A DNA stretch of 34,815 bases, from assembly GCA_005799825.1 (NCBI GenBank), contig SYFT01000037.1, forward strand, positions 1 to 34,815, given 5' to 3'. The position numbers and the translations under genes are program-made. The stretch is from Acidobacteriota bacterium (GTDB lineage: Bacteria > Acidobacteriota > Vicinamibacteria > Vicinamibacterales > SCN-69-37). Each line of letters starts with the position of its first letter. Position 1 is the stretch's first letter. This document shows, piece after piece, positions 4,867 to 20,114 of this stretch. The notes below the pieces were generated by a model. That model saw only the letters and a list, made by a program, of their open reading frames with translations. It made no database searches and was not told the origin of the DNA.

Positions 4867-5418
4867 TTAGTGATCAACGGGCACCACCTCACGCGGGTGC
4901 AGGCTCGCCAGGAATGCGGCGGTCTGCCCTGCGTCGAACTTCGGGTCTGTGGCTTCGATGGCGAGGAAAAACGCCGACGAGCTGGCCATTGAAAAACGGG
5001 CGGCATTAAACACCGGATGGTAGGGCTGCGGCAGCCCGTTGAGCACAATCATCGAAATGCCAGCGGAAAACGCCGCGAACAGGATGGTCAGCTCGAAGGT
5101 CACTGGAATAAATGACACCCACGAATGGAGCGGCCGCCCGCCGATGTCCAGCGGATAGGCAATCACCGACGTCCAGTACTGCAGGCCATAGCCGGCGAAC
5201 ATGCCGGCGATGCCTCCGGCCAGCACAAACGGCGCGACTTTGCGTTCCTTCATGCCGAGCGCTTCAGCCAAGCCGTGAATGGGCATGGGCGAGTACGCGT
5301 CTGTGCGCGTGTAGCCCGCGTTGCGCACCTTGTGCGCGGCATCAAGCAGAGCCTGAGCCGAGTCGAACTCGGCCATCAGGCCGTGAAGGGGTGATTCGAT
5401 CGTTGCCTGCCGGGCCAT
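4867..5418 (-). CDS. actD: Alternative complex III subunit ActD (DUF3341)
   Basis: ActD is a small membrane subunit that packs against the core of ACIII; it carries no cofactor. This 183-aa protein shows the family order. A cytoplasmic ferredoxin-like N-terminal domain (LHGLMAEFDSAQALLDAAHKVRNAGYTRTDAYSPMPIHGL) is followed by two helices (about 82-105 and 128-150). Between them lies the conserved loop YPLDIGGRPLHSWVSFIPVTFELTILF. It ends with the usual soluble tail (HPVFNAARFSMASSSAFFLAIEATDPKFD). The start ATG overlaps the actC stop by one base. Confidence 0.95.
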   Translation of the reverse strand: MARQATIESPLHGLMAEFDSAQALLDAAHKVRNAGYTRTDAYSPMPIHGLAEALGMKERKVAPFVLAGGIAGMFAGYGLQYWTSVIAYPLDIGGRPLHSWVSFIPVTFELTILFAAFSAGISMIVLNGLPQPYHPVFNAARFSMASSSAFFLAIEATDPKFDAGQTAAFLASLHPREVVPVDH

Positions 5419-6821
5419 CAGTGCGACTCCCCCTCTGGCTTCGACTTTGTGGCGGCTTCAGGCAGCAACGTGCGCATTTCGAAAATCGAGATCATCGGCA
5501 GGATTCGCACGAACAGGAACATGAGCGTGGTGAACAACCCGATGGTGCCGAAAAAGGTCATAAAGTCCCACCGCGTCGGGCTGTAGATCGCCCACGACGC
5601 CGGCAGGAAGTCCTGGCTGAGGCTGGTCACAATAATGACAAAGCGCTCAAGCCACATGCCGACGTTCACGAACATCGCCACTGTGAAGAGCACCGTGATG
5701 TTGCGTCGAAATTTCTTGATCCAGAGCAGTTGCGGCACGAGGAAGTTACAGACTAGCAGCGTCGGGTACGCCCATGGGTAATACCCGTCGAATATGCGCA
5801 GACGCAACATCTCTCGTTCGTAGAGGCTGCCGCTGTACCAGCCGAAGAACGCTTCGCACACATAGCCGTAGACCACGATCAGGCCGGTCACCAGAGTGAC
5901 CTTGGCCATGTTCTCGAGGTGACGCATGGTGATGAAATCGTGGAGCTTATAGATCGCCCGCAGTGGAATGGCGAGCGTGAGCACCATCGCAAAGCCGGCA
6001 TACACGGCGCCCGCAACGAAGTACGGCGGAAAGATGGTGGCGTGCCACCCCGGCAGGTTCGATACGGCGAAGTCGAAGCTCACCACAGTGTGCACAGACA
6101 GCACCAGTGGCGTTGAGAGACCGGCGAGGATGAGGTACGCGGTCTCATAGCGATACCAGTGACGCGCAGACCCGCGCCAGCCCATGGCCAGTACCCCGTA
6201 GATTTTCTTGACGATTGGCTTCGCGGCCTTGTCGCGAAAGGTCGCAAGGTCGGGAATCAGGCCGATGTACCAGAACAAGAGCGAGACCGATCCGTATGTG
6301 GAGACGGCAAACACATCCCAGATCAGCGGACTGCGGAAATTCGGCCAGAGCCCCATCACGTTCGGGTACGGCAGTAGCCAGTACACGGCCAGCCACGGAC
6401 GACCGGTGTGGAAGAGGGGGAAGAGTAGGGCGCACGCCACGGCGAACAGCGTCATCGCTTCCGCGAAGCGGTTGATTGAGGTGCGCCAGTCCTGCTTGAA
6501 GAGGAGAAGGATCGCTGAAATCAGGGTGCCGGCGTGACCGATACCAATCCACCAGACGAAGTTGATGATGTCAAAGGCCCAACCGACCGGGATGTTGTTA
6601 CCCCAGATGCCGATGCCTTTCACCAGCAGGTATCCGAGCGACATCATCAGGCCCATCAGCAGCGTAAACCCGACAGCCATGAACGCGAACCATGCGGCGG
6701 GCGTGTTCTTTGTCAGGACGAGCGCGGTCAGCTTGTCCGTGATGCTGGCGTAGCTATAGCCGGGTGTGATGATCGGCAAGGCACCGAGCGGGTCTTGCGT
6801 GTCCTTCTGGCTGACGTCCAC
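5418..6821 (-). CDS. actC: Alternative complex III subunit ActC (NrfD/PsrC-family quinol-binding subunit)
   Basis: ActC is the ten-helix membrane subunit thought to bind menaquinol and hand electrons to the ActB iron-sulfur chain. At 467 aa it has the expected size. Diagnostic stretches are the first helix WFAFMAVGFTLLMGLMMSLGYLLVKG, the VGWAFDIINFVWWIGIGHAGTLISAILLL segment with a conserved His, FHTGRPWLAVYWLLPYPN, and SVHTVVSFDFAVSNLPGWHATIFPPYFVAGAVYAGFA. The latter region carries His and aromatic residues typical of the quinone side. The Glu-rich C-terminal tail is cytoplasmic. It sits between actB (24 nt away) and actD (overlap). Confidence 0.96.
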   Translation of the reverse strand: MDVSQKDTQDPLGALPIITPGYSYASITDKLTALVLTKNTPAAWFAFMAVGFTLLMGLMMSLGYLLVKGIGIWGNNIPVGWAFDIINFVWWIGIGHAGTLISAILLLFKQDWRTSINRFAEAMTLFAVACALLFPLFHTGRPWLAVYWLLPYPNVMGLWPNFRSPLIWDVFAVSTYGSVSLLFWYIGLIPDLATFRDKAAKPIVKKIYGVLAMGWRGSARHWYRYETAYLILAGLSTPLVLSVHTVVSFDFAVSNLPGWHATIFPPYFVAGAVYAGFAMVLTLAIPLRAIYKLHDFITMRHLENMAKVTLVTGLIVVYGYVCEAFFGWYSGSLYEREMLRLRIFDGYYPWAYPTLLVCNFLVPQLLWIKKFRRNITVLFTVAMFVNVGMWLERFVIIVTSLSQDFLPASWAIYSPTRWDFMTFFGTIGLFTTLMFLFVRILPMISIFEMRTLLPEAATKSKPEGESH

Positions 6822-6845
6822 CGACTCTCTCCGTTCGCGCGGTCC

Positions 6846-9800
6846 CTAATGACCGGAATTCTTGGTACCGGCCGACGTCTCGCTCGGAAGCGCCGGGTTC
6901 GGATTGCGTACCACTGCCAGATAGGTCGTCCTCGGACGGCTCCCCAGATCCTCAAGGAGTCCGTAGTTGCGATCCTGCGCGGCCAGTTTCGACACCTGGC
7001 TGTCGGGCATGTTCAGATCGCCAAAAACAATGGCCTCGGCCGGACACGCCTGCTGGCATGCCGTCTGGATCTCGCCGTCGGCGATCGGCCGTTCAGCCGT
7101 CTTTGCATCGATGCGCGCGTGATTGATGCGCTGCACGCAATACGTGCACTTTTCCATCACGCCGCGGCTGCGGATCGTCACGTCGGGGTTGCGCTGCGCC
7201 TTCAACTCCGGCGTCGTGAAGTCGGAGTAGAGCATGAAGTTGAAGCGGCGCACCTTGTACGGGCAGTTGTTCGAGCAATAGCGCGTACCGACACAGCGGT
7301 TGTAGACCATATCGTTCAGGCCTTCATCGCTATGCACCGTGGCCGCCACCGGGCACACCACTTCGCAGGGCGCGTTCTCACACTGCTGACACGGCAATGG
7401 CTGGTGATACGTGCCCGTCGGCGACGCGGGGTCGCCCTCGAAGTACGTATCGAGGCGGAGCCAATGCATCTCGCGGCTGCGCTTGACCTGATCCTTGCCC
7501 ACAACGGGAATGTTGTTCTCGGCCACACAGGCGGCAATACACACGCCGCACCCGGTGCAGGCGTTCAGATCGATCGCCATACCCCATTTGTTGCCGTTGT
7601 ATTCGCGCGGCGGATACAGCGACAGGTCGGGGTCGGGCGTGTGGCCCATGTGTTTGACGATCGTCGGATCGGCCTGGTAGGCCGCCGCGTCAACGATGCG
7701 GACCGGGTTGCGGCCCTCCATCGCGAAATGCGACTGGGTGGACGCAAGCGTATGTGTCTCGCCCGTGCGCACAAACGATGCACCCTCGGTGAACCACGGC
7801 GCCTGAGCCGTGCGAATCACAAACGGGTCGGCTCCAATGTTCGAGCCCACGCGGCCGGCCTTGCGGCGTCCGTATCCGAAATGTACGACCAGCACATCGT
7901 CAGCCGTGCCGGGCATCACCCAAACGGGCATCTTGACCGTGCGCCCGTGGCTGGTGATTTCGATGACGTCTTCGTTCTTGAGGTGGTTCGCTTCAGCCGT
8001 GGTGTAGCTGACGTACACGACGTTGTCCCACGTCAGCCTGGAGATCGGCTTGGGCAGTTCCTGCAGCCAGCCGTTGTTGGCGTACCGGCCATCGAGCACA
8101 GTCGGATCGGGCCGGAACACAAGCTCGAGACCCGTGGCAGACACGGCGGCCTCTTCGAACGAGGAATTGGCCGGGGCTGCCGGCAGCGTGGCGCCTTCGC
8201 GCATCAGCGAGGTGCTGGCGACGAACCCGTCGTGCAGCGCTGCGCGCCAGAACGCGTCAACCGTGCCGAAGGGGGGACCGCTCGCATCAATCAAGCCGCC
8301 CGTGGCAAACGCCCGAGTCCAGTAATCCTTCACTAGTTCCACTGGCGTTCGGCCGGGGGTACCATTGAGCGCCGAGAGCAGTTCCACCGCCTGACGGCCG
8401 TCGTAAAGCGGCGCAATCAGCGGTTGCTGAAAAGTGATGGTGCCGTCAAACGCGCGCGCATCGCCCCACGACTCGAGGAAGTGGGCTTCGGGCACGTGCC
8501 AATCGCACAGGTCCGCGGTCTCGTCGTAATACAGACCCAGGTGGATGCGCGTACCGACCTTGGCGAGCGCGTCTGAAAATCCGATGTCCCCAGGCGCCGT
8601 GAACACGGGGTTGCCGCCCAGAATCAGCAGCACGTCCACCTTGCTCGCGTTCATGTCGGCCACAAGTGCCGACAGTGAGGCCGCGCCATCGGCCGGCGTG
8701 GCGGCGACCGGAGCGGTGTAGACGACGGTGGTGCCCACGTTGCCGAGGGCCTCGTTCATGGCGCGGGCCAGCGCGTGCACCGACGCGGGCTGATGGGGTC
8801 CGGCCACCACCAAAGAGCGGCCGCGGTGATCCATCAGGTCTTTGGCCAGGACCGGCAGCACCTTCTGCACGGGTGCGCTGAGCGTGCCCGATGCCGGAGC
8901 GGCCACGCCCAGCGCGCTCGCCAGCGCAGCGGCGATGCTATGCACGTCGCGCGCCTTCACGGCCAGGCGATGGGCCGCCTTGGTGCCGGTCAGGGTGGGG
9001 ACGGGCTCAACGACGTACAGGCGGTTCTGCTGGTCCTTGGGCGTACCGATGCGGCGGCGCGACGAAAAGTCTTTGGTGTAGCGCACCGAGGCCGGGCCGA
9101 AGCCGAGGAAGTCGGCGTCGAGCGACACCACGACGTCGGCGTTTTTGAACTGATACAGCGGCATCGCGGTGGGTGCGCCACCCTGCACGGTGCCGTATAC
9201 GGCATCCCACTGGTGCCACTTCGCGCCAGGCATCGCGGTCAATAGCGTCTGAAGCTGCTCGACCAGCGTGGGCGAGGTGAGCGGTTCAGTGAGGATGCGC
9301 AGGCCGGCGCCCGAGAGCGCTTTTTGCGTATTGAGCACCGCCTGAAGAGCCGTCGTGAAGCCGGCCCAGGTCTTGGTGTCGCCGCGATATCGCAGCGTGC
9401 GCGACCGGTCGGGATCGTAAAGACCGAGCACAGCGGCCTGGCCAAAAATGTCTGTCGCGCCCAGGCTGGCCGGGTGCTGCGGATTACCCTCGAGCTTGGT
9501 AGGACGGCCCAGGTGGTTCTCGGCCAGCAGCGGCATGCCGAAACCGCCGGCGGTCATCGACGTGGCGAAGAAGATCGGCCGGCCGGGAATCACTTCCTCG
9601 GGCTGGCGGACGTAAGGAACGATCAGCTCTTCGGGCTGCCGGGTGCAGGCGCTGACGCCGGCGAGCGCGAGCGACGCGCCCATTAATTTCAAGAACTGTC
9701 GCCGGCCAGCGGGGTCGTTGAACTCGGAGGCCTGCGAGGGAAACTCCCTAGCAACAAAGTCCTGGAACTCTTCCGTGTTGGCCAGCTCGTCGAGGCTGCG

Positions 9801-15002: not shown

Positions 15003-15758
15003 ATGAAAACACACACCCTGCCCCTGCTGTTGTCCTTGCTCCTCGCCCCCGCCCTGGCTTCCGTTGCGGCCGCGCAAACTGTTGACGAAGTGGTGGAGAC
15101 GCACCTGGCGGCCATGGGAGGCCGTGACGCACTCGGCAAACTGACCACACGCAAGGCCACCGGCGCCATCACGATCAGTACACCCAACGGTGACTTGAGC
15201 GGGCCTGTCGAGATCTATTCGAAAGCCCCCAACAAGTCGCGCGCGTACATGTCCCTGGATCTATCAGCCCCGGGCGTGGCCGAGAAGATGATTGTCGACC
15301 AGAAGTTCGACGGCACCGCAGGTTGGGCGATCAACTCCCTGCAGGGCGACATGGAGATCGCGGGTAATCAGCTCGACAACATGAAGAACGGCGCCTTCCC
15401 CAGCCAGTTTCTCAACTACAAGGAAGCCGGCATGAAGATTGAGCTCCTGCCGAAGGAAACACTTGCCGGCAAGAGCGTCATCGTTCTTCTCGTCACGCCC
15501 ACGGTCGGGTCGGTGGCCCGCGTGTATATGGACGCCGAGTCGTTCCTGCTCGTCCGGACGACGGCAACAATCAACGTGCCCCAAACGGGCGGCGATATAG
15601 AACAGACCGCTGACCTCTCGGACTATCGGGCGGTCGATGGCGTCAAGGTCCCGTTCATGACGGTGAACTCGTCGCCCATACAGACGGTGACGATCAAGCT
15701 CGAAACGGTGGCGCATAACTGGTTCCTCGACACCGCCATGTTCAGCGTGGCGAAGTAA
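15003..15758 (+). CDS. Secreted LolA-fold-like protein (outer-membrane lipoprotein-sorting type)
   Basis: The ATG at 15003 gives 251 aa with a clear signal peptide (MKTHTLPLLLSLLLAPALASVAAAQ, cleavage after AAA). An earlier TTG at 14994 would weaken it. The mature part begins TVDEVVETHLAAMGGRDALGKLTTRKATG, a helix followed by a strand that recurs in LolA/LolB-like periplasmic proteins of acidobacteria. Repeating beta-strand segments follow, including DGTAGWAIN, KSVIVLLVTPTVGSVARVYMDAESFLLVRT and DLSDYRAVDGVKVPFMTV. This is the half-open barrel expected to hold a lipid or hydrophobic ligand. The fold class is moderately sure; the ligand is unknown. It stands alone on the plus strand and converges on the Omp85 operon. 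Confidence 0.82.
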   Translation: MKTHTLPLLLSLLLAPALASVAAAQTVDEVVETHLAAMGGRDALGKLTTRKATGAITISTPNGDLSGPVEIYSKAPNKSRAYMSLDLSAPGVAEKMIVDQKFDGTAGWAINSLQGDMEIAGNQLDNMKNGAFPSQFLNYKEAGMKIELLPKETLAGKSVIVLLVTPTVGSVARVYMDAESFLLVRTTATINVPQTGGDIEQTADLSDYRAVDGVKVPFMTVNSSPIQTVTIKLETVAHNWFLDTAMFSVAK

Positions 15759-15857: not shown

Positions 15858-16700
15858 CTATTTGATGACCACGTTGACGTTGAAGCGGCGGTAGTTGGTG
15901 TAGGTTGAGTGCGCCTGGACTTTTTCGGCCAGGCGGCCGACAGTGTGTTCGTAGGTTTCTGTCAGTGACGACGGCAGCCAGAGGCCGAGCTTCTGGTTCT
16001 CGGTGAAGACCGTGGTCAGGGTGCCGGCGGTCTTGCCGTCCTTCAACGTGATGGCCGTGCGGAGCACGCGCCCGGTCACCGCGTCGATGACCAGGTCCCC
16101 CTTCGCGAAGATCTGACTGCCGTCGGCGCCGCGCACCAGCGTGGGCGCCTCGCGCTCGGTAAACGTGATCGTCACCATCGGGCCCGTGGCCGACGGCTCG
16201 ACTCGGCGCCGGTCAAATGTGAATCGCTCGCGATGTTTGTCGTCGAGGATGACCAGCGCCAGCATCGGGTCGTTGACGTTCCTCGAGATAGACCCGATGT
16301 TGTAGCGCGCGTTTCGATCAGCCAGTTGCCGGCCAATGCGCGCGAAGGATGCCTTCGTGAGCAGCTCGCGCAAATTATCGCGTTTCTCGAGCGGAACGCC
16401 GTCCACGATGGCGATGTCGCGCACACCCACCCAACCTCCATCGGTCGGCAGGTACGTCAGGAAGAATTCTCCTGACGTTTCACGGTGCGCCGCGGAACCG
16501 CCGCGCTCGTCGAGCACGTCTTGGATGGTGGCTTCGTCGCACAGGACGAACTGAAGCGCCTCCTTGTATTCCTTGAGATAGACCGCGGTTTTTGCAATGA
16601 CCGCGCGCACCGACATGTCCGGCGAAGGCGCCTGTGCGCGCGCGACCATCGGCGCCGCAATCGCGCACGCCGCCAACCATCCGCACACCAATCGCGTCAT
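15858..16700 (-). CDS. Secreted protein of the Omp85 operon, C-terminal LolA-like pattern
   Basis: This is a 280-aa protein I cannot name. The start ATG at 16700 overlaps the Omp85 gene stop (TGATG) and gives a signal peptide MTRLVCGWLAACAIAAPMVARAQ; reading further upstream would run through the Omp85 gene in another frame. The N-terminal 140 residues are helical and charged (KTAVYLKEYKEALQFVLCDEATIQDVLDERG). The second half alternates beta strands such as PMVTITFTEREAPTLVRG, GDLVIDAVTGRVLRTAITL and LGLWLPSSLTETYE, and closes with STYTNYRRFNVNV. That strand pattern and the ending recall LolA-like periplasmic proteins. It is the last gene of a three-gene operon and probably acts in the envelope with the barrel. 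Confidence 0.8.
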   Translation of the reverse strand: MTRLVCGWLAACAIAAPMVARAQAPSPDMSVRAVIAKTAVYLKEYKEALQFVLCDEATIQDVLDERGGSAAHRETSGEFFLTYLPTDGGWVGVRDIAIVDGVPLEKRDNLRELLTKASFARIGRQLADRNARYNIGSISRNVNDPMLALVILDDKHRERFTFDRRRVEPSATGPMVTITFTEREAPTLVRGADGSQIFAKGDLVIDAVTGRVLRTAITLKDGKTAGTLTTVFTENQKLGLWLPSSLTETYEHTVGRLAEKVQAHSTYTNYRRFNVNVVIK

Positions 16701-17965
16701 CAGAACGTCAGGCCTCCGCCAACATTCACCCGAGTGCCCGCGCCCCGTCCTTGGGCCACCGACACACTCACGCGAAACACCGTGGCCGACATCCACACGC
16801 TGCCGCCAATGCCGTTCTGATTCACCTGTTCCTTCACCCGCTGGCCGAAGTCGTAAGCCACACCTGTATCCACAAACACGCTGAGGCCGAGCCGGGCCAC
16901 AGAAATCGGCGATAAGATGGGCACAAGCAGTTCCGCAGACCCGACGAGCACGATGTCGCCGACGAACGCGCCGGCCTCGAACCCGCGCAGGCTGGACCAG
17001 CCGCCAAGGAGCGGCTTGAGGTAAGCAGGCTGCGGCCCATTGGCGCCCAGGCGCAGCACACGGACGGCCAGCACACTTTGCCCGAGGAGCCCGAGGTAGC
17101 CTCGACCGTCGAGGTTGGTCCGCTGCAGGGACGCCCCGCTCGTGAACGACATGCGTTCCCACGCCGCTGTGGCGAATACGGCGTTGCGGGGATACGCCGG
17201 ATCGAGCCGCGTATCCAGAGTCACGTCGGCGCCCACCGTCGTCATCTCGCTGGAGATGGGCCCGAATGTGACCGTGTGCCACCCGAGCGTGCTCCCCACC
17301 CGAACGCTGCTGAACGCTCGCTCGGCTCGCGCCCACACTCGTCCCCGGTCGTCATCTTCATCAAACGCCGGATTGGTGCGGCGCTGGATGGCGGCGCCCA
17401 CTTCGACGCGAGTGATAGGCCCCGATACAAAGGTCTTCACGAGCTCCACGCCCGCTTGCCTGGTGCCGCCCCATGACAGGGGAACCGACAGCCGGCTGCG
17501 ATCACCAAGCACGTTGGCGATCGACGATGTCACGCCGTAGGTCAGGCCATACCCGTCCTCGGCGTTGAGGATGGGAAAGTACATAAGTGTGTTGAAGACG
17601 CCGCGGCGATTGATGACCGCGATGTCCTCCCCATCGGGGCCCTCATCGAAGTCCACGCGCACCGCGCCTTCGTTCACGATGAGGATGAGCGCGATCTTTG
17701 TGGGGTCGGCGATCGAGGCAAACCGCTTCACCACCTGCACGTCTTCAAACTTGCCGGACCCGTTTAACTTGATACGCGCCCGCGCGATGGTGTCGACGGT
17801 GACAGGCGCGCCAATGGTGAGGCCGGCGATCGTGATGATCTCGGCGTCTGGCGTCAGATGATTTCCGTGCACCCGAATCTCGGCAACGACCTCGCCTGGC
17901 TGAACGGGCGCGGCCTGCACGAACAGCGCAAACGTCAACGATGCCGCAAGCGCCAGTGCTGTCAC
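16700..17965 (-). CDS. Omp85/TamA-like outer-membrane barrel with a single POTRA domain
   Basis: Omp85 proteins insert or move proteins or lipids at the outer membrane. The 421-aa product starts at a GTG (17965) that overlaps the upstream stop. It has a signal peptide and one POTRA domain (about residues 24-105: VAEIRVHGNHLTPDAEIITIAGLTIGAPVT...GKFEDVQVVKR). The C-terminal half is a barrel of amphipathic strands. The hallmark L6-loop motif appears as LRGF in GGWSSLRGFEAGAF, and the chain ends VNVGGGLTF with a terminal Phe, as expected for Bam-dependent insertion. BamA normally has five POTRAs and TamA three, so this is a reduced relative. It lies between two secreted proteins with which it overlaps. 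Confidence 0.87.
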   Translation of the reverse strand: MTALALAASLTFALFVQAAPVQPGEVVAEIRVHGNHLTPDAEIITIAGLTIGAPVTVDTIARARIKLNGSGKFEDVQVVKRFASIADPTKIALILIVNEGAVRVDFDEGPDGEDIAVINRRGVFNTLMYFPILNAEDGYGLTYGVTSSIANVLGDRSRLSVPLSWGGTRQAGVELVKTFVSGPITRVEVGAAIQRRTNPAFDEDDDRGRVWARAERAFSSVRVGSTLGWHTVTFGPISSEMTTVGADVTLDTRLDPAYPRNAVFATAAWERMSFTSGASLQRTNLDGRGYLGLLGQSVLAVRVLRLGANGPQPAYLKPLLGGWSSLRGFEAGAFVGDIVLVGSAELLVPILSPISVARLGLSVFVDTGVAYDFGQRVKEQVNQNGIGGSVWMSATVFRVSVSVAQGRGAGTRVNVGGGLTF

Positions 17966-18912
17966 TTAATCCTCGCGGTCGTGGTTGCGAGTTTGTAGTT
18001 GTGGTAGCTCAGGCGGTACCGCGCGTCCATCTCGCCCACCGCCAGCATCGCGGAGAAAAACATCTCCACGTCTTTCGGCAGCCACACATCAGGGAACGGC
18101 ATGTGCATGTTCATGGTGGCGCGGACGTCGGTGAAACGCGCGAGCCAGGCCGCGGGTAGGAAGTCCAGATTCACGTTTTGGAAGTCATACTTGACGATTT
18201 GGTGCGCTGAGGGCTCAATCCACAACGTGACCATAGAGACCTTGTTCAGCATCTTCTCAAGGGCGGCGTCGTAGTTGTCGTCCTTGAGCTTCTGCCCGTT
18301 ATTGCGCCGATGCTCCCGGGAGTTCTGCTCTTTTGAAAACAGCTTGGCCGGGTAGTACTCCACCTTCAGCACTTCCCGTCCGTCAAGCGTCTCCTTGCCG
18401 ACAAACGCATATTTACCTTCTTCGAACTTGAACTTCAGAAAGTAGGCGGACGAGATGAACGCGGGTTCGCGCGACTGACGAATGAGGCTCTGCGCATCCA
18501 TCGGCATGGCTGCTTCCAGCGGCTCAGCCTTGGAGACCCGCCGCTTCTCCCTGCTCTGTTCGCGCTGCAGGAACCGATCTTCATACGTGCGGCGCTCTTT
18601 CTCGGGGATTGCCACTCCGTTGGCCCTGATCGGGCTACGCACAAAGAACCCGTCCCGCACATACCAGGTGTAATCGCGGCGGTCGCCCCACAGCGGCACC
18701 TTGCTGGGGCCGCGGAGCTCGAACTGCTCGCGCTCATCGAGGATGTACTGCTGGAACTTCTTCCAGTTGTCGTCGCGCTTGACGACCACCTGTTTCATGA
18801 ACGCGTCGAGGTCACTCTGCGGGGCCGGGATGGTGGCCACTTCCTGACCCAACGCACCCGCCACAACCACCGCAAGAACGACCCAGTATCGCTGTGCCAC
18901 CCAAGCCTCCAT
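17962..18912 (-). CDS. Secreted protein heading the Omp85 operon, LolA-like C-terminal half
   Basis: The ATG at 18912 (MEAWVAQRYWVVLAVVVAGALGQ) provides a signal peptide and 316 aa; the longer frame to 19080 crosses the neighbouring gene. Residues about 30-180 are highly charged (DDNWKKFQQYILDEREQFEL, EKERRTYEDRFLQREQSREKRR) and include a DYTWYVRDGFFVRSP segment. The rest is beta-rich: KFKFEEGKYAFVGKETLDGREVLKVEYYPAKLF, VTLWIEPSAHQIVKYDFQNVNLDFLP, DVWLPKDVEMFFSAMLAVGEMDARYRLSYHNYKL. This resembles lipoprotein-sorting folds. No catalytic motif is obvious. Its stop overlaps the Omp85 start (GTGA), so the two are made together. Confidence 0.82.
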   Translation of the reverse strand: MEAWVAQRYWVVLAVVVAGALGQEVATIPAPQSDLDAFMKQVVVKRDDNWKKFQQYILDEREQFELRGPSKVPLWGDRRDYTWYVRDGFFVRSPIRANGVAIPEKERRTYEDRFLQREQSREKRRVSKAEPLEAAMPMDAQSLIRQSREPAFISSAYFLKFKFEEGKYAFVGKETLDGREVLKVEYYPAKLFSKEQNSREHRRNNGQKLKDDNYDAALEKMLNKVSMVTLWIEPSAHQIVKYDFQNVNLDFLPAAWLARFTDVRATMNMHMPFPDVWLPKDVEMFFSAMLAVGEMDARYRLSYHNYKLATTTARIK

Positions 18913-18988: not shown

Positions 18989-20081
18989 CTAAAGCAGTAG
19001 GGCTTCGACGCGGTGGGCGTGAACGATGTCGTCGCTGGAGGACCAGCGGAAGATCGTGAAACGGCCGTCCTGCGAGGCAACGAGGGCGATGGACTGTGGC
19101 TGATCCTGCGCGAACCGCGCGGCCGAGAGGTGGCGCGTGCCGCCCAGTTGCGACGGGCCCATCAGGCCCGGTTCGCGGTCGCGAATGAACTCGGAGACCA
19201 GGACACGTTCCACTAGCGGACGCGAACGGCGCCGGGTGATCTTTGCGCCGAATGCCACCAGCTCGTTCGCGGTGGTCAGGATTGTGGCGCCGTCGACGGC
19301 CGGCGATGGCGTCAACCGCGCGCCGCAGGTCGTCCTGCCACTCATGGATACAGCGCTCCTCGTGTTCCCGGTTCATCAGCTCCGCGAGTTCGGTGAATTG
19401 TGCGGCCACGGCATAGACCACCGATTCCACGATCGATTCACGCCAGTGGTCGTCGCTTTCGGGAACGATGAGGAGGGCTCCGCCGCGGTGATGCGCGTGC
19501 ATGGAGGCGGCCAGATGCACCAGTAGGTTGACCGACTCGCCACTGGCGGTCAGTTCGTTCTGGCCCAGGAGCGATTTGAGAAGACCGGGACCCTCGGGTC
19601 CATCGGCCGTGCCCTGATCGACGATCTTGACTTGATCGCCCTCGAGCACCGCGATATTGCCGAACTTGCCGAAAGGCTCGTAGCGATATTTGACGACTAA
19701 CAGCCCTGAGCCGGTCACTTCGAGCACGAAACAGAACGCTGGAATGCTGCGCGTGGTGCCCCACACTCTGAGCTGGCCGTCCACGGGCCAGACGCCCAGG
19801 TAAATGCCCGGTCGTTCCACGGCCGGCGCCAGTTTTGCGAGCGCTGCCGGATAAAGAAGCAACCATTCGGAAAACGGGGGCGCCTGTCCGGCGTGTCCGG
19901 GGGGAAGCGCAAGCGAGATGGTGAGTGTGACGCCCTCCTCGCGTCTCAGACTCGCCCAGAACCCGGCGTCAATGATCGCTTCACTGTAGTGAGCCTGCGG
20001 TTCTTCGCCCAGATCAATGCGGCCCTGAGCACCCGCGGCCGTCAGATGCCGGGCGAAGTGCTCCTGCACGGTCGCGACCAC
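18989..20081 (-). pseudogene. DisA-like nucleotide cyclase with DACNV-type sensor domain, split by a frameshift
   Basis: The first frame (GTG at 20081 to codon 261, ...DLRRAVDAIAG) encodes a sensor-like region. It includes RPGIYLGVWPVDGQLRVWGTTRSIP, VVKYRYEPFGKFGNIAVLEG and HHRGGALLIVPESDDHW. The second frame, from 19297, carries the diadenylate-cyclase-like end: VDGATILTTANELVAFGAKI, LGGTRHLSAARF, ALVASQDGRFTIF. Dropping one C near 19298 (GGCCGTCGACGG on the minus strand) joins them into 363 aa. DAC enzymes make c-di-AMP from ATP; DGA and RH of the catalytic motifs are present, but the usual RHR reads RHL and the SEE reads SQD, so related or altered chemistry is possible. It lies 33 nt after efp. 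It is either a real pseudogene or a single-base assembly error. Confidence 0.78.
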
Positions 20082-20114
20082 ATGTCGTGCGGCGGGATAC
20101 CGTGGTTCGGCCGC

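Follow-up and report, generated by a model that had tools for sequence, protein, structure and literature searches.

A secreted protein with a predicted LolA-superfamily fold paired with a single-POTRA Omp85 barrel in Acidobacteriota

The locus and its proteins

The window (the whole stretch of DNA that was analysed, 34,815 nucleotides of an Acidobacteriota genome) carries three minus-strand genes, here called A, B, and C, that overlap by a few bases, together with a fourth gene, D, that converges on C; this arrangement had been described in an earlier, sequence-only reading and is confirmed here. The features discussed below are the following:

17962..18912, minus strand: gene A, a 316-aa secreted protein with an ATG start and a LolA-superfamily predicted fold
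18142..18174, minus strand: conserved hydrophobic loop of A (aa 247–257, consensus VGLDFLPGRWL)
17962..17965, minus strand: A/B overlap of 4 bases (GTGA)
16700..17965, minus strand: gene B, a 421-aa Omp85 protein with a GTG start, a signal peptide, and one POTRA
16700..16700, minus strand: B/C overlap of 1 base (TGATG)
15858..16700, minus strand: gene C, a 280-aa secreted protein with an ATG start, by profile comparison a remote homologue of A
15003..15758, plus strand: gene D, a 251-aa secreted protein convergent on C

A, B, and C alike begin with a hydrophobic signal-type segment, in agreement with the earlier proposal that A and C are exported. Upstream of A, between it and the EF-P gene, lies a gene for a DACNV-domain protein (a probable sensor; 18989–20108, minus strand), which is broken into two frames near position 19300 and has intact orthologues in L001 and L003; it is either a recent pseudogene or the product of a sequencing error.

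B is a member of the Omp85 superfamily. It matches PF07244 (POTRA) over a single stretch, residues 27–100 (22.9 bits; cut-off 21.3), and PF01103 (Omp85) at 37.8 bits (cut-off 24), and its structural model (pLDDT 74) shows one beta-alpha-alpha-beta-beta POTRA and 15–17 barrel strands, i.e. a barrel of about 16 strands, so that its description as a single-POTRA Omp85 stands. Across the B family, 51 of 53 members match PF01103 at E ≤ 0.1 and 49 of 53 have a PF07244 POTRA, POTRA_2 being found in a single member (E 0.056). The structures nearest to the model are BamA and TamA (best E 7e-15), the POTRA of the B profile aligns best with the barrel-proximal POTRA of BamA, and the best sequence match in the PDB, 9ccg, is the BamA of Fusobacterium. 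Against the BamA equivalog model (TIGR03303), B scores 37.5 bits, under the cut-off of 297.

The same genome encodes further Omp85 proteins, namely L179 (large), L180 (multi-POTRA), and L010 and L182 (propeller-type), as well as a canonical LolA (L183). The LolB model, which was built mainly on proteobacterial proteins and may miss non-proteobacterial ones, found no match in this genome. With multi-POTRA Omp85 proteins and a canonical LolA encoded separately, and LolB unmatched, A and B are an addition to this equipment. In L010 and L182, the Omp85 barrels are joined to TolB/WD40-type propellers, a combination that constitutes a known Omp85 class (PMC4104836).

A belongs to no family in Pfam or NCBIfam. 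Scans of 46 members of its own family yielded scattered sub-threshold names only, with none of the 46 matching PF03548 (LolA) or PF17131 (LolA_like) at E ≤ 0.1, and sequence profiles of 9 and 46 rows matched nothing in the PDB up to E 10. The fold of A was instead predicted from an AlphaFold2 model built on nine sequences (mean pLDDT 66.8; low at residues 1–30, 130–165, and 191–224), which has an N-terminal helix, some ten strands forming an antiparallel sheet, and further helices. The best PDB matches found by Foldseek were 3bk5, 4z48 (DUF1329), 9tp6 (LolA3), 3buu, LprG, RseB, and LolA, the first four at E 2e-5 to 2e-4 and Z 8.7–9.5, and the best fold matches were all LolA-type or DUF1329. 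Structural realignment placed LolA3, 3bk5, 4z48, 3buu, and Porphyromonas gingivalis LolB at the top (Z 8.1–9.5), followed by LprG (with lipid), LppX, apolipoprotein-type lipid carriers, and LolB. The TM-scores of the best matches are low (0.28–0.43), yet we trust the assignment because the leading matches are LolA-type or lipid-carrier folds. By these structural matches, and at moderate model confidence, A is predicted to have the fold of the LolA superfamily, an unclosed beta half-barrel with covering helices as in LolA, LolB, and LprG.

The hydrophobic loop at residues 247–257 is among the best conserved parts of A, and its F251 and P253 do not vary across 46 diverse members. By analogy with the exposed loop of LolB, this loop could contact the membrane or the POTRA. 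A lipoprotein with a LolB-like anchor can be rejected for most members of the family, since a lipobox-like motif is absent from 59 of 69 A proteins; the N-terminus of A in the window has no cysteine.

The sequence-only reading had called both partners of the barrel LolA-style and had remarked that A and C end alike. The family profiles of these two proteins do align over their whole length (hhalign probability 96.8%, E 2.4e-10), and chance as the cause of their similarity is rejected by column-shuffled, reversed, and A-versus-B controls, all of which stayed below 1%. This comparison, from which the fold of C is also read, makes C a distant homologue of A; nothing curated in Pfam or NCBIfam matched C, and a sequence search of the PDB returned nothing credible. 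The LolA label holds for A as a predicted fold, and C is tied to A by profile; for D, which was likewise thought LolA-like, the label is weak: D reaches NCBIfam LolA1_Flavo at E 0.14 and has no match in the PDB.

Conservation and fusion of A and B

The conserved unit is the pair A-B rather than the triplet A-B-C that the sequence-only reading had put forward: A-B is ancient and widespread in Acidobacteriota, and C is a local addition. A search with the B barrel across 84,980 species genomes, which reaches fairly close relatives only and says nothing about absence elsewhere, returned eight loci, all from Acidobacteriota, with A directly upstream in 8 of 8, even where barrel identity falls to 34–41%. 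These eight and 60 fetched regions give a set of 68 loci, and at each of them (68/68) the gene next upstream of B, on its own strand, is A. A start codon for B that would give the register seen in the window, overlapping the stop codon of A by exactly 4 bases, exists at 27 of the 61 unfused loci.

A is present in 13 of 14 genomes of the family and in 41 of 396 genomes drawn evenly from the phylum. Within the order, A was found in 104 of 162 genomes, B (threshold E ≤ 1e-30) likewise in 104 of 162, and both in 102. The mismatches amount to four genomes, with A only in G434 and G506 and B only in G270 and G507. G270, G506, and G507 were rejected as true exceptions because the partner would fall past the end of a contig (in G507, a piece of A is visible at that end); in G434, A persists only as a short broken piece. 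The module is missing from about one-third of the order, near-complete genomes included, and hence is not essential. A search for a third conserved neighbour found none recurring outside close relatives or beyond the genus, and the pair accordingly behaves as a self-contained module.

At seven loci of family f10, in seven genomes (L109 at 5308–7635, L111, L112, L113, L114, L115, and L118), A and B form one polypeptide, in the order A signal peptide, A, linker (variable and often proline-rich), POTRA, and barrel, the signal peptide of B being gone. The six complete fusions measure 769–811 residues with the listed starts; L111, left out of this range, is truncated by the start of its contig, yet fused. 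In a barrel tree, the seven fusions constitute a single clade (support 100/100) beside four unfused copies from the same family. Several independent fusions are thereby rejected: the fusion is ancient and had one origin. It has been retained over five genus codes, which speaks for a functional protein and suggests that A is also physically close to the POTRA where the two are separate proteins.

Copy number and protein size vary at some loci. In another family of the phylum (G043, L150:6440–8517), a tandem pair of A genes stands before a single B gene. Some genomes of family f5 have several A-B copies (G497 and G512 have three B genes each), and many A proteins of that family carry a long insert, of roughly 150 residues or more, where the sequence is variable past residue 130; these observations come from L161–L164 and from genomes of f5.

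The C family is a phylum-wide set of scattered paralogues, with members in 36 of 297 phylum genomes and frequently several per genome. The only genomes in which C follows B are five from the genus of the window (the window, G008, G009, G011, and G012). In G010 and G013, of the same genus, the nearest homologue of C (53–54% identical) sits elsewhere than beside A-B, and none was found beside A-B in the other families examined. C is therefore a local recruit. D, for its part, adjoins the module in some close relatives only and lies outside the conserved unit. In G007, of the same family, the gene immediately after B on its strand is homologous to D rather than to C (L160:4859–5572, minus strand); the secreted protein in the third slot thus varies from genus to genus.

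Possible functions of the pair

The sequence-only reading had suggested a dedicated lipid- or lipoprotein-handling device at the outer membrane, and this remains the best reading, and a plausible one, because of the universal adjacency of A and B and the existence of natural fusions. We propose, with about an even chance of being right, that A and B make up one outer-membrane device in which A carries a predicted hydrophobic cargo and B lets this cargo into or out of the outer membrane. A would be a periplasmic LolA-fold domain, docked at the periplasmic end of the POTRA of B or covalently fused to it, and its half-barrel would most likely bind a hydrophobic moiety, be it a lipid or lipoprotein acyl chains. 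The cargo would reach A from a carrier such as LolA or be taken from the inner leaflet, and the seam of B, with a thinned, laterally openable patch of membrane, would most likely permit its insertion or extraction. C, where present, would serve as an accessory carrier.

In favour of this proposal, we count the adjacency at 68 of 68 loci, the 102 shared genomes, the fusion clade, and the predicted LolA-type fold of A. The Omp85 and POTRA identity of B, the lack of any other conserved neighbour, the separate multi-POTRA Omp85 proteins and LolA of the genome, and the precedents of PlpD and Borrelia treated below weigh on the same side. Against it stand the lack of any inner-membrane transporter conserved beside A-B, the use of LolA folds outside transport, for instance in sensors (RseB), the absence of the module from about one-third of the order, and the evidence on the fold itself, which comprises a model of moderate confidence, low TM-scores, and no PDB chain found by sequence profile. 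A stronger version, which we put forward tentatively and think rather less probable, is that A-B acts as a self-contained terminal insertase, a LolA-type carrier domain joined to an Omp85 barrel, which would deliver a lipid or lipoprotein straight into the outer membrane or across it. If so, a single device would combine the tasks that LolB and surface-lipoprotein exporters perform apart, and Omp85 barrels would have been taken into service for lipid cargo on more than one occasion.

Other functions would also account for a barrel with an obligate partner. An unlikely but serious one is that the pair is a specialised assembly factor for outer-membrane proteins, in which B would insert particular barrels as BamA and TamA do and A would be a periplasmic chaperone or substrate receptor dedicated to it. 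BamA and TamA are indeed the proteins closest to B by sequence and predicted fold, and Heinz and Lithgow suggest assembly roles for ‘BamA-like’ proteins with 1–3 POTRAs (PMC4104836); the fold of A, however, is that of lipid or lipoprotein carriers rather than of a known barrel chaperone, and no barrel gene is conserved beside A-B. We consider it improbable that A is a passenger that crosses the outer membrane to be secreted or displayed by B, in the type V-like manner once proposed for PlpD. The fused proteins do share with PlpD the order passenger, POTRA, barrel, and 41 of 53 B members also match ShlB/FhaC barrels, but the PlpD domain in question turned out to be periplasmic (PMC11116518), A lacks a TPS domain, repeat passenger features, and a Pfam family, and the single POTRA of B is of the PF07244 type, not POTRA_2.

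Still less probable is a functional triad of A, B, and C. The overlapping genes of the window, the adjoining position of C in five genomes of the genus, and its remote homology to A would all fit such a triad, but C is not beside A-B in G010 or G013 or in any other family examined, and its relatives are scattered paralogues. Finally, it is very doubtful that A is an RseB/MucB-type sensor of envelope stress or lipids by which B would be regulated or gated. RseB and MucB are among the fold matches of A, but those to RseB are weaker than the LolA-type ones, and no gene whatever is conserved beside A-B, sigma-factor and anti-sigma genes included.

Relation to known systems

The lipid- or lipoprotein-handling reading invites comparison with PlpD of Pseudomonas aeruginosa, the patatin domain of which is periplasmic and the deletion of which raises phospholipid levels; the Omp85 proteins characterised before it all assembled or moved proteins (PMC11116518). 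Like the fused A-B proteins, PlpD has one POTRA, an Omp85 barrel, and an extra N-terminal periplasmic domain, in the same order. Its extra domain, which acts on lipids, is a patatin phospholipase, whereas A-B has a predicted LolA-type fold at this place and no patatin match was found in the fused proteins; moreover, PlpD is one polypeptide and A-B mostly two.

Single-POTRA Omp85 proteins were thus already known, from PlpD (PMC11116518) and from the ‘BamA-like’ class with 1–3 POTRAs described by Heinz and Lithgow (PMC4104836), and the sequence-only reading, although correct about the domain, overstated the novelty of the barrel. Members of the ‘BamA-like’ class resemble B in having a POTRA and a barrel and in being additional to BamA. 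The main text of that 2014 article names neither a LolA-type partner nor Acidobacteria, and A-B differs from the class as set out there in being a defined two-component unit (PMC4104836).

The statement that no description of such a system was known also needs amendment, since the available text of a computational proposal already pairs a LolA-like secreted protein with an Omp85 protein, encoded together as are A and B, in the Borrelia BBJ23–29 cluster (PMC13078400). As that text presents it, this cluster belongs to a different phylum, comprises seven genes, including a LolCDE-like ABC transporter and TPR proteins, and has an Omp85 without a POTRA, against one POTRA in B; the same text describes no fusion, whereas A-B is fused in one clade (PMC13078400). 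Neighbours of this type (a LolCDE/MacB-like ABC transporter and TPR proteins) are not conserved beside A-B beyond the genus level.

With LolA and LolB, A shares its predicted fold, and like LolA, it is secreted and soluble with a type I signal peptide. It is about 100 residues longer than Escherichia coli LolA, matches neither LolA nor LolB in Pfam, is tied to an Omp85 barrel, and in the window lacks the lipobox and lipid anchor of LolB. The pair has neither the POTRA_2 domains nor the TPS-domain partner of two-partner secretion (TpsB) systems.

Within the Omp85 superfamily, A-B counts as a new variant rather than as a machine of a new kind, and it has the look of a lipid- or lipoprotein-handling device not described before. 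A lineage whose Omp85 barrel has an obligate partner of lipid-carrier fold, joined to it once by fusion, allows a direct test of whether Omp85 barrels can act as lipid or lipoprotein insertases and of how diderm bacteria without a LolB-model match complete lipoprotein delivery, and the natural fusion offers a single-polypeptide construct for structure determination and reconstitution.

One further family touches on this subject. We found no literature treating DUF5686 (PF18939, Bacteroidota) as a LolA-plus-barrel homologue, and PF18939 exceeded its cut-off in none of 149 genomes. Its positions 197–241 match A of G010 weakly, below the family cut-off (E 0.099), and its positions 124–255 show a weak likeness to stand-alone secreted proteins of Acidobacteriota (L169–L178); to judge from these alignments, DUF5686 may conceal a LolA-type domain.
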